This document shows positions 14,078-25,833 of a DNA stretch of 44,619 nt, piece by piece. The first letter of the stretch is position 1. The number at the start of each line of letters is the position of its first letter. Location of the stretch: assembly GCA_903857255.1 (NCBI GenBank), contig CAIODY010000025.1:1-44619 (forward strand), written 5' to 3'. The translations under genes were made by a program, and so were the position numbers. The DNA is from an uncultured bacterium. Its GTDB lineage: Bacteria > Bacteroidota > Bacteroidia > Chitinophagales > CAIODY01. The notes beneath the pieces are model-generated. The model saw only the letters and a program-made list of their open reading frames with translations, made no database searches and had not been told where the DNA came from.

Positions 14078-14161
14078 GCCCAGATGGCGAAATTGGCAGA
14101 CGCACTACCTTGAGGTGGTAGAGCCCGAAAGGGTGTGCAGGTTCAAATCCTGTTCTGGGCA
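14078..14161 (+). tRNA. tRNA-Leu (GAG anticodon)
   Basis: The 84-base gene folds into a class II tRNA. The acceptor stem pairs GCCCAGA with TCTGGGC, the discriminator base is A at 14161, and no CCA is encoded. The anticodon stem CTACC/GGTAG encloses the loop TTGAGGT, giving anticodon GAG, which reads CUC/CUU leucine codons. The variable arm is long, as expected for leucine, and the T arm contains GGTTCAAATCC. A run of nine T begins at 14166 and may end transcription. It stands alone between fabD and the arginase-fold gene, both on the other strand. Confidence 0.96.
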
Positions 14162-14189
14162 CAAATTTTTTTTTGATTTTGGTTGAATT

Positions 14190-22627: not shown

Positions 22628-25327
22628 TTATTTCTTCATCGCATACTCCAAAATCTTATCAATAAAATCGTAAGGTTTATAGCCTGCAATCGCTGCTTGA
22701 TGATAAATGCAAGTAGCAGGAGTCATGCCTGGCAAGGAGTTTGCTTCAATCACTAAAGTATCGGTTTTCAAATCATCATAAATTCTTACAAACGCATCCA
22801 ATCTTGCATAACCTTCAATTTTTAAAAGCTGTGCAGCATCTTCAATTGTTTTTTTCACTTGTTTTGAAATGAGTTTGAATTCTTTTGCATCCTTTGAAAA
22901 CCTTGCCGGTGTTATGTTTTGCCCTTGTCCTGCTAAAAATTTTTCTTCCAAACTCAACACATCACCATCAGCTAATGCTTCACTCGGTTCAAAAACTTCA
23001 TACATAATTTTTCCTTCTTCAGTGCGATGAGTGAGCAACCCAACGGTTACTTCCATGAATTTTGCACAATCTTTTTTATCAACCAATGCTTCTATCAATA
23101 CCACATCTTTATTCGGAAATTCTTCATTTTTCTTTAAATGTAAAATCTCAGCATCTTTCTCAATTAATGCTTCACTTTCTCTGAAAATTAGTTCCACAAA
23201 GGCTTTCAACTCATTGTCATTTTTTATTTTTTTCACTGCACTGCTGCAACCATCATCAACAGGTTTTGCAATTAATGGATAAGAAAATTTTTCTTTCACC
23301 ATTTTCAAACAAGCATTTTCATCTTTTAGCCAATCACTTTTTTGCAATAAATATTGTTCGGTAACTGGCAAATGATGTTGCTTTAATAATTGCAGCGTAT
23401 CAAATTTGTTGATTGTTAGCTGCGAACTTTCAACGCCACTTCCATTATAAGGCAAACCTATTTTGTTCAACTCATTTTGTACCGCTCCATCTTCACCAGG
23501 GCGACCATGCAAGGCTATGAAAACTACATCACACAAGCTTTTCAAGTCATTGTAAGAAATTTTCTTTGGAGCAAATTGAACATTTTCTCCTGCAAATTTT
23601 TGAGTAATACTTTTACATTCTTCTTTGATTTTGTTCAACATTGGATGGACTGAATAATGCAAAATTTTCTCTTTGATATCATCTGCATTATCCTTCAACA
23701 TCATGTTAATCGGCAACACATACAAATTATGTTCATCTTTATTGCCAAAAAGAAAAACAGGAATGGGTTCGTATTTAGTGCTGCTCGATAATTTTTCAAA
23801 AATGTTTCTACCACTTTCAACGCTGATATGTCGCTCCGAACTATAACCGCCCATGATAACTGCGACACGAATTTTATTAACGGTTTTAGATTTTTGATGA
23901 GCAATTTTTTCGTTCAACGAATTTAACAACGATGAAAATTTATTGGCTTCAAAGCCAAGCCCGATGCGTTGTTTGATAGAAGTTGCAATAATGTAAGTTA
24001 AAAATTGTGAAGGATTTAAACCAATTTCTGCTGCCTGATGAAAGAAGAATGAACTTGGCAACATTCCGCTTGTAGTATTTGGGTCATTTAAAAATATTTT
24101 CCCATCATCACTCAAAAACCCATCGATACGAGCATATACATTGAAATTGAAAAACTGAAAAAGTTTTTCGCATTCAATTCTGATAGCTTGAATTTGTTCA
24201 TCGCTTGCAGATATTGGTGTAACCTTACGACTCAATCCTGGCAAGTATTTCGAGCGATAATCAAATAAATCTTGTCCTTTAATAATTTCAGTTGGCGGCA
24301 ATGCAATTGGATTTCCATTTTCATCTTGCACTACGATGCAACTAAATTCTCTGCCTTTGATAAACGCTTCAACCAAAACTTCTTTTTCAGAATCTAATCC
24401 TGCTAACACAATAGCATCTGTATCATTGTTAGTGAAATGTTTTTCAAGTTGAGTGTATAACTCTTGTGGTTGGTAAACTGTAATGGGTTCTATCGTTAAA
24501 CGATTATTATAACTGAAAGGGTTAAAAGTCAATGGTAAACCCACTCCCTCTTTAATATCGGTTAACTCTTTTATTAAAACGACTTTCTCAACTTTAGTCT
24601 TATTTTTCCAATCTGCCGATTCTATTTTTTTTGAAAAAAAAGCTTTATGAATAGCAATACGCCACTTCAAATAATTATACTCATTAAAAATTGTTGCCCC
24701 TACTGAAGAACCTTGATTGGCTGGTTTTATAACTAATGGCAACCCCAATTCATCTATCAAGTCATGGAACTCTTTATTTCCGTATTGTTCAGACCAATCT
24801 TCTAATGTAATAGTTCTAAATTTTGGCGAATGAAATCCGCCAGCTACCATCAACTTTTTTTGCACTGCTTTATCCATACCGATTGCACTTGGTAAAATAC
24901 CCGAACCGCTGTAAGGAATTTTTAACCATTGCAGAAATCCTTGCACAGAGCCATCTTCACCATTGTTGCCATGCAAACACAAAAAGCCAAAATCAATTAG
25001 TTGAGGTAATTCTTCAAAAGAAATTTTCTTCCCAACTTGAGCAATCATTTTATTCAAATCTGCATCTGATAAACCATTCAGGCTTTCTACATACATTTGA
25101 AAACCAAATTTTGATTCGGGAATAAAATCTGTTGTTGGATAAAAATCGCGAATTGTTCCTTTATAAATAAACTGCCAATCCAATAGAATCAAGTTGTTCA
25201 GCGAATCTACAAAAATTGGAACAGGCTCAAACAACGATTTATCCAAATTATCATAAACAGTTCTGCCACCAGCAAACGATATTTCACGTTCACGAGATGA
25301 GCCACCAAAGAAGATTCCAACTTTCAT
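22628..25327 (-). CDS. tandem D-alanine--D-alanine ligase fusion (two Ddl modules)
   Basis: Ddl makes D-Ala-D-Ala for peptidoglycan; a normal enzyme has about 310-370 residues. This protein has 899 and contains two complete modules. Module 1 (about 1-450) has G-G-S-S-R-E-R-E-I-S-F, L-H-G-N-N-G-E-D-G-S-V-Q-G, V-I-K-P-A-N-Q-G-S-S-V-G, and a C-terminal N-D-P-N-T-T-S-G-M-L-P-S. Module 2 (about 470-899) has G-G-Y-S-S-E-R-H-I-S-V, L-H-G-R-P-G-E-D-G-A-V-Q, and E-A-N-S-L-P-G-M-T-P. In module 1 the metal-binding Glu of E-x-N is Asp and the following L-P-G is T-S-G, so the modules may differ in activity. It is a single gene convergent with the universal stress gene. Confidence 0.92.
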   Translation of the reverse strand: MKVGIFFGGSSREREISFAGGRTVYDNLDKSLFEPVPIFVDSLNNLILLDWQFIYKGTIRDFYPTTDFIPESKFGFQMYVESLNGLSDADLNKMIAQVGKKISFEELPQLIDFGFLCLHGNNGEDGSVQGFLQWLKIPYSGSGILPSAIGMDKAVQKKLMVAGGFHSPKFRTITLEDWSEQYGNKEFHDLIDELGLPLVIKPANQGSSVGATIFNEYNYLKWRIAIHKAFFSKKIESADWKNKTKVEKVVLIKELTDIKEGVGLPLTFNPFSYNNRLTIEPITVYQPQELYTQLEKHFTNNDTDAIVLAGLDSEKEVLVEAFIKGREFSCIVVQDENGNPIALPPTEIIKGQDLFDYRSKYLPGLSRKVTPISASDEQIQAIRIECEKLFQFFNFNVYARIDGFLSDDGKIFLNDPNTTSGMLPSSFFFHQAAEIGLNPSQFLTYIIATSIKQRIGLGFEANKFSSLLNSLNEKIAHQKSKTVNKIRVAVIMGGYSSERHISVESGRNIFEKLSSSTKYEPIPVFLFGNKDEHNLYVLPINMMLKDNADDIKEKILHYSVHPMLNKIKEECKSITQKFAGENVQFAPKKISYNDLKSLCDVVFIALHGRPGEDGAVQNELNKIGLPYNGSGVESSQLTINKFDTLQLLKQHHLPVTEQYLLQKSDWLKDENACLKMVKEKFSYPLIAKPVDDGCSSAVKKIKNDNELKAFVELIFRESEALIEKDAEILHLKKNEEFPNKDVVLIEALVDKKDCAKFMEVTVGLLTHRTEEGKIMYEVFEPSEALADGDVLSLEEKFLAGQGQNITPARFSKDAKEFKLISKQVKKTIEDAAQLLKIEGYARLDAFVRIYDDLKTDTLVIEANSLPGMTPATCIYHQAAIAGYKPYDFIDKILEYAMKK

Positions 25328-25485: not shown

Positions 25486-25833
25486 TTAAATGTGCATTCT
25501 ATTCTTTTTGTCTAACAATTGTTCTGGTGTTTCTACTACCATTTCATCAGGTACACAACAATCAACAGGGCAAACGGCGGCACATTGCGGCTCGTCATGA
25601 AAGCCTTGACACTCTGTACATTTTTCAGCCGTGATGTAATAACGGTCATCAGCAACTGGAGCATTTTTTGCATTTGCTTCAATCGAAGAACCATCACGAA
25701 GTGTGAAACTTCCTTTCACAGTTGTTCCATCTGCCATTGCCCATTCTACGCCACCTTCGTAGATTGCGTTATTCGGACATTCAGGTTCGCAAGCACCACA
25801 GTTGATGCAATCGTCAGTAATTTTAATAGCCAT
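25486..25833 (-). CDS. 4Fe-4S dicluster ferredoxin
   Basis: The 115-residue electron carrier has a first cluster motif [12 protein letters not shown] near 10-21 and a second half with C-T-E-C then [11 protein letters not shown] in the region 72-90. The spacing between Cys groups in the second half is longer, as in the Allochromatium-type (Alvin) ferredoxins. It ends with a charged tail. It is divergent from the LuxC-type acyl-CoA reductase, with which it shares an interlocked promoter, suggesting that electron transfer and the aldehyde-forming reduction may be co-regulated; a direct partnership is inference. Confidence 0.94.

Follow-up and report, generated by a model that had tools for sequence, protein, structure and literature searches.

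A fused double D-Ala:D-Ala ligase with two unequal modules, widespread in Bacteroidota

The only recognisable D-Ala:D-Ala ligase (Ddl) of an uncultured Chitinophagales bacterium is a double enzyme, encoded by one open reading frame (ORF) in the window (the whole 44,619-nucleotide stretch analysed, contig CAIODY010000025.1). Textbooks describe Ddl as a single-module enzyme, and D-cycloserine targets it. Comparison of sequences indicates that the gene is the sole PF01820 gene of its genome, that the double architecture is old, that the asymmetry between its two modules is fixed, that module 1 is enough in one family (f11), and that both modules decay together beside a standalone Ddl. On balance, we incline to the view that the protein is an ancient fused Ddl duplicate supplying D-Ala-D-Ala, in which module 1 would be the catalyst and module 2 a nucleotide-binding partner.

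The product of 22628-25327 has 899 aa with an ATG start (ORF list and translation), and the plus-strand reading of the same interval was stop-rich. Pfam detected Dala_Dala_lig_N in two stretches (E 2.5e-46 for the whole protein) together with Dala_Dala_lig_C (E 1.2e-56), and NCBIfam likewise gave two Ddl modules. The AlphaFold model had a mean pLDDT of 84.5 and a pTM of 0.84, with pLDDT <50 at omega-loops, stretches 693-695 and 870-872. Solved Ddl structures were matched by residues 1-463 (best Z 35.5, 3q1k_A; 332 aligned, rmsd 3.3) and by residues 483-899 (best Z 33.0, 3tqt_A; 317 aligned, rmsd 2.7). Each module is thus predicted to be a Ddl by its fold and by most of the tabulated residues. 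The initial annotation had described an 899-residue protein with two complete Ddl modules; its coordinates were right, the Pfam and structure matches agree with it, and the motifs are as it quoted them (D415-P-N-T-T-S-G in module 1 and E861-A-N-S-L-P-G in module 2). The features are as follows (residue numbers with a DdlB equivalent refer to E. coli DdlB).

22628..25327, minus strand: double Ddl gene (ORF, translation, Pfam/NCBIfam, genome profile search)
23942..25327, minus strand: module 1, residues 1-462, proposed D-Ala:D-Ala ligase (alignment, structure match)
23882..23941, minus strand: linker, residues 463-482, predicted to be largely helical (AlphaFold secondary structure)
22631..23881, minus strand: module 2, residues 483-899, putative partner with changed acceptor site (alignment, structure match)
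24035..24091, minus strand: module 1 metal/acceptor loop, residues 413-431 (LNDPNTTSGMLPSSFFFHQ) (alignment, each change in 77/77 rows)
22697..22753, minus strand: module 2 metal/acceptor loop, residues 859-877, in which T872 is DdlB S281T (77/77 rows)
23246..23248, minus strand: C694 (DdlB S150), Cys in 77/77 doubles and Ser in 69/69 singles
22937..22939, minus strand: F797 (DdlB Y216), Phe in 77/77 doubles and Tyr in 69/69 singles
23588..23890, minus strand: part of module 2 matching the family f11 stub, residues 480-580 (alignment)

The module 2 loop retains E861 and N863. The sole tRNA detected in the window was tRNA-Leu(gag) at 14078-14162.

A profile search of the source genome (96.9% complete, with murF found) with PF01820 (Ddl N domain) gave two matches, both inside the 22628-25327 ORF. 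Since PF01820 matched nowhere else in the genome, no D-Ala:D-Ala ligase other than the double is recognisable in this cell, and the separate single-module ddl for which the initial annotation had proposed a search was absent by this profile. Eight further ORFs were above or near the cut-off of PF07478; however, this model also exceeded its cut-off in each of the 14 controls, which included archaea, and we therefore did not accept these ORFs as a hidden second Ddl.

Within the close family, five of the six genomes had the double, and the sixth, 83% complete, had no match. In the survey of the order, a PF01820 match was present in 186 of the 198 sampled genomes, 69 of which had two or more. For 64 of these 69, both matches were in one ORF and there was no other match; in one more (G310) the matches lay on two contigs and together made one double. 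Thus, 65 of the 186 Ddl-bearing genomes had a double and no further PF01820 gene (64 single-ORF cases and G310), and the remaining four multi-match genomes (G443, G461, G465 and G475) had a standalone Ddl besides a double. One PF01820 match was found in each of the other 117 genomes, a minority of which were inspected individually, and some of the 117 may hold doubles cut by contig ends. By family code, doubles were found in 12 of the 22 sampled families of the order, and other families (e.g. f2) had single matches only. Doubles also occurred outside the order (G077 and G171), that of G077 being identical to a protein of Hymenobacter jeongseonensis (L025). Among named genomes, 53 loci were matched (Hymenobacter, Pontibacter, Marivirga and many Bacteroidota MAGs); most aligned over the whole length, and the best segments were 50-86% identical. 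An assembly artefact or chance was ruled out because many independent genomes carry the double. The double architecture appears to be old and widespread, and many Bacteroidota apparently produce an essential building block of the cell wall with a double enzyme. A different arrangement was seen in L103 (G140), a 944-aa open frame with the Ddl part in its C-terminal half and an N-terminal part of ~500 aa.

In the alignment, 81 rows were doubles (78 of them distinct) and 69 were single-module proteins, to which DdlA and DdlB of E. coli were added. Removal of three exact duplicates and four decayed doubles left 74 distinct intact proteins, where "intact" denotes any double but the four decayed; the 77 double rows compared below are the 81 minus these four. 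Twenty-nine loci (overlapping copies, partial genes, L103 and L126) were skipped. Of eight ORFs classed as "other", L132 and L133 were entered as the reduced form (see below) and L059, L061, L063, L064, L164 and L178 were left out. Note that this residue-by-residue alignment took in 25 of the 65 order genomes with the double.

Each module had its own fixed set of changes when the 77 double rows were compared with the 69 singles. Module 1 had E270D, P275S, Phe282 and His285, and module 2 had S150C, Y216F and S281T, each in 77/77 rows. In single-module rows, Ser150 and Tyr216 were found in 69/69, Glu270, Pro275 and Ser281 in 68/69 (one gap), Lys285 in 35/69, and Met, Ile or Leu at 282 in 62/69; S150C, Y216F and E270D occurred in none. 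Common to both modules in all 77 rows were E15, K97, E180, E187, K215, R255, D257, N272 and G276, and K144 was Arg in 20/77 module 1 rows and unchanged in 77/77 module 2 rows. In the window protein, module 1 retains E13, K153, K201, S207, E320 and E327 (DdlB E15, K97, K144, S150, E180 and E187) and K360, Y361, R400, D402, N417 and S426 (DdlB K215, Y216, R255, D257, N272 and S281), and module 2 retains the tabulated ATP, metal and catalytic residues, the R255 site included, with Glu270 unchanged in 77/77 rows. Module 1 thus appears to be changed at the metal site and acceptor loop, and module 2 at the triad and acceptor site; with Cys150, Phe216, Thr281 and the unchanged key residues in 77/77 rows, module 2 is apparently under constraint. 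The asymmetrical active sites of the initial annotation were real as to the metal site, but the larger change in module 2 (S150C, Y216F, S281T) had been missed.

Could this be simply a fused dimer, with D-Ala-D-Ala made by each module and with fixed differences that are either neutral or a means of adjusting the rate? A recurring dimer arrangement is common to Ddl enzymes according to an excerpt of PMC6899670, both modules have the Ddl fold and keep E15, K215, R255 and G276, and both decay when redundant (see below). However, different fixed changes in each module across 74 distinct proteins argue for a division of labour, as does the absence of S150C, Y216F and E270D from all 69 single-module rows, and we consider the simple dimer distinctly unlikely.

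The changes in module 2 bear on another explanation, namely two ligases in one chain, with module 1 making D-Ala-D-Ala and module 2 joining D-Ala to D-lactate, D-serine or a similar acceptor. Phe at Y216 and Cys at S150 were found in 77/77 module 2 rows; in lactic acid bacteria, depsipeptide ligases are recognised by Phe at the Y216 position and dipeptide ligases by Tyr (excerpt of PMC5996685), and DdlB given the residues of LmDdl2 (Phe and Ala) at Y216 and S150 reportedly gained weak D-Ala-D-Lac activity (excerpt of PMC7691350). LmDdl2 (1EHI) was also among the best structural matches, though it was aligned to module 1. However, the likeness of module 2 to LmDdl2 amounts to two positions, one of them with a different residue, and with the distribution of module 2 described below, we regard this explanation as unlikely.

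In the tree of 55 rows, module 1 formed a clade with support of 100/99 and module 2 one with 100/100, and both kinds of singles each fell on one side of a branch. The two modules joined each other at 96/88. In AU tests, two other pairings were not rejected (p 0.33 and 0.21), and long branches meet at this point. Nine columns are common to both modules and rare in singles (e.g. H430/H876 and P424/P870), which argues for a common duplication; modules 1 and 2 are therefore favoured as sisters. Each module being a deep clade, a recent duplication was ruled out, and both modules appear to be old whichever pairing holds. The unequal modules described by the initial annotation thus held up under separate-module phylogeny. 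As for its counter-case, in which both modules group together as a recent, fully active duplication and no separate ddl exists, the modules do join and no separate ddl was found, but the duplication seems to be ancient and both sites are altered.

In family f11, module 2 is reduced to a stub. Two genomes of this family had ORFs of 561 and 581 aa with this arrangement, and the family search covered 81 genomes of 36 genera. The reduced form, in which a complete module 1 is followed by the initial ~100 aa of module 2 (a stub matching window residues 478-580), was found as one ORF of 553-677 aa with a near-full-length match in 78 of the 81 genomes (reduced-form sequences L133 and L193-L222). The exceptions were G553 (gene split over two ORFs), G501 (partial match in a 265-aa ORF) and G486 (142-aa ORF, matched at the C-terminal end only). 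No double-length ORF was among the matches listed for the 81 genomes, and the further matches to the module 1-containing query were weak (314-337-aa ORFs in ten genomes). In G254 (one 7-Mb contig, 99% complete) and G195, the two f11 genomes of the 81 that were scanned, no other PF01820 gene was found. Two Ddl-like ATP-grasp proteins of 328 and 325 aa (L191 of G195 and L192 of G465) were not counted as Ddl because they had no GSS motif and a different N-terminal part (read by eye). In the stub, the GGxSxE motif was not conserved (Gly493 a gap in 24/30 and Glu498 Glu in 19/30); the stub may pack against module 1.

All 30 aligned f11 sequences kept Asp270 and all other tabulated key residues. Since they include sole PF01820 genes, Asp270 appears compatible with the role of the only Ddl, and the metal Glu seems dispensable, given Asp in 77/77 doubles and 30/30 f11 sequences. 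Thus, we call module 1 Ddl-like in function and do not claim a textbook metal site for it. The reduced form also suggests that module 1 can work without the catalytic part of module 2, and that it can be sufficient in this one lineage. At the loop, f11 had Pro275 in 30/30, Lys285 in 30/30 and Leu282 in 26/30, whereas Ser, His and Phe were found at these positions in 77/77 doubles; the unusual module 1 loop therefore appears to go with the presence of module 2, in this one lineage. When the loop columns were excluded, f11 nested among cytophagalean module 1 rows (85/99.9), and with these columns it was sister to all module 1 rows (93/93). The former tree favours reversion as the origin of the canonical-looking f11 loop, but retention was not rejected by the AU test (p 0.36).

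These results also concern which half would be the odd one. The initial annotation had suggested that one module may be regulatory or use another substrate; functional divergence is indeed likely, but a reading of module 1 as the impaired or odd half, for want of E-x-N-x-x-P-G, was not supported, since the Asp-bearing module 1 is the Ddl remaining in f11 and the changes at the dipeptide/depsipeptide positions Y216 and S150 fall in module 2, module 1 being unaltered there. The argument from the metal motif alone would point to module 1 as the impaired half. An inactive or regulatory module 1 beside a module 2 (E-A-N-S-L-P-G) acting as the Ddl would be in line with the 98-100% conservation of the metal Glu among Ddl sequences (excerpt of PMC6899670), module 1 having Asp. 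We nevertheless consider it highly improbable, because f11 keeps the Asp270 module 1 without the catalytic part of module 2 and because it is module 2, not module 1, that departs at the triad. Decayed doubles bear on the same question in both directions, as follows.

In the four genomes with a standalone Ddl (G443, G461, G465 and G475), key active-site residues were lost in both modules of the double, whereas in genomes lacking a standalone Ddl the double was intact in 27/27 aligned cases. This contrast of 27 versus 4 (Fisher 3e-5) is uncorrected for kinship, and by the tree about three acquisitions of a standalone Ddl stand behind it. G391 (intact) and G475 (decayed) have the same genus code. 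The decay of module 1 was mild in G475 (E68A, K215D, G276P, and Glu rather than Asp at 270), where module 2 has lost more residues, which speaks against module 2 as the Ddl. In G443 and G461, on the other side, module 1 has lost more key residues; module 2 retains more there, with the K215/Y216 loop, R255 and G276 gone. From the joint decay beside a standalone Ddl, the double seems to be retained for Ddl function, neither module showing a separate lasting job. For the explanation with two ligases in one chain, the lack of the module 2 catalytic part in f11 and this joint decay beside a plain Ddl suggest that module 2 adds no lasting essential product there. The four decayed doubles (L184, L185, L186 and L187) are still long proteins with PASTA tails recognisable by Pfam, and are perhaps pseudo-enzymes retained for the tail.

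PASTA domains also occur beside intact doubles. Of the 53 named loci (L019-L071), 43 had a PASTA-like gene as the next gene downstream, in the same orientation as the double; some loci end too early to show a downstream gene, and the PASTA-like gene of L019, the one checked, was confirmed by Pfam. No PASTA gene adjoined the double in the window or in L054; elsewhere in the source genome there were PASTA matches, of which one fell in an ORF of 283 aa. Several f3 genomes have open frames of 1199-1344 aa in which a hydrophobic segment and PASTA are joined to the double. L134, L136 and L188 (1200-1270 aa) carry this segment and PASTA at the C-terminus, and L135 resembles them by eye; Pfam confirmed PASTA in these three f3 doubles, as in the four decayed ones. 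The f3 fusion protein is probably tied to the membrane, and its outer part could sense the cell wall. Upstream of the double in the window, on the same strand, is a gene for a YfhL-like 4Fe-4S ferredoxin (25486-25833), and a relative of it adjoins the double in L054 too.

We infer that module 1 would be the catalyst of the full double and module 2 its partner or regulator. In module 1, ATP would phosphorylate D-Ala1, which D-Ala2 would then attack; this would be the ordinary reaction, with one metal-binding Glu replaced by Asp. Module 2, with its ATP, metal, D-Ala1 and transition-state residues retained and its triad and acceptor pocket rebuilt (S150C, Y216F, S281T), most likely binds nucleotide and substrate, and may support or tune module 1 in the same chain, like the second subunit of a Ddl dimer. 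Against the partner role, the full catalytic set of module 2 exceeds the needs of a pure regulator. As a tentative alternative, the double may be a two-reaction machine like CarB, the large subunit of carbamoyl phosphate synthetase. Module 2 would then carry out an ATP-dependent step of its own on D-Ala with a different acceptor, yielding a depsipeptide or another D-Ala-D-X, or would alternate with module 1; the changed module 1 loop would then work well only beside module 2, and it looks canonical where module 2 is lost. We see some room for such a machine, and still prefer a catalytic module 1 with a nucleotide-binding module 2.

Many Bacteroidota appear to rely on a fused double whose sites differ at the metal positions (module 1) and the acceptor positions (module 2), a form hidden by the plain annotation "Ddl". 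The influence of one Ddl subunit on another and the evolution of acceptor choice become directly testable, since the reduced and decayed relatives serve as natural comparisons. A double Ddl, its fixed asymmetry, the reduced form and the PASTA fusions were absent from the literature matches listed.

Compared with known systems, E. coli DdlB and DdlA have the fold of module 1 and agree with it at every tabulated ATP, metal and catalytic position save E270D, but have one module (306 or 364 aa) with Ser150, Tyr216, Glu270 and Ser281; the best solved structure matches of the double in the fold search were Ddl chains. LmDdl2, the D-Ala:D-Lac ligase of Leuconostoc mesenteroides, is like module 2 in having Phe at Y216 and a residue other than Ser at S150, but it is single-module and has Ala at S150 (excerpt of PMC7691350), where module 2 has Cys. 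The window protein scored 134-242 bits against NCBIfam cut-offs of 495-775 for the Van and D-Lac/D-Ser families (among the 25 listed of 39 matches), and 185 bits against 1015 for the bifunctional MurC-Ddl (NF011171), and so reached none of them. In MurC-Ddl, too, a Ddl is part of a larger cell-wall enzyme, but its partner is MurC, not a second Ddl. CarB catalyses reactions that differ from those of Ddl. Its structure 1BXR, which is not a Ddl, ranked 48 in the fold search (1124 columns, TM-score 0.45, 10% identity). Like the double, CarB is a head-to-tail ATP-grasp duplication with two unequal active sites, its internal duplication being described in an excerpt of PMC11915815.
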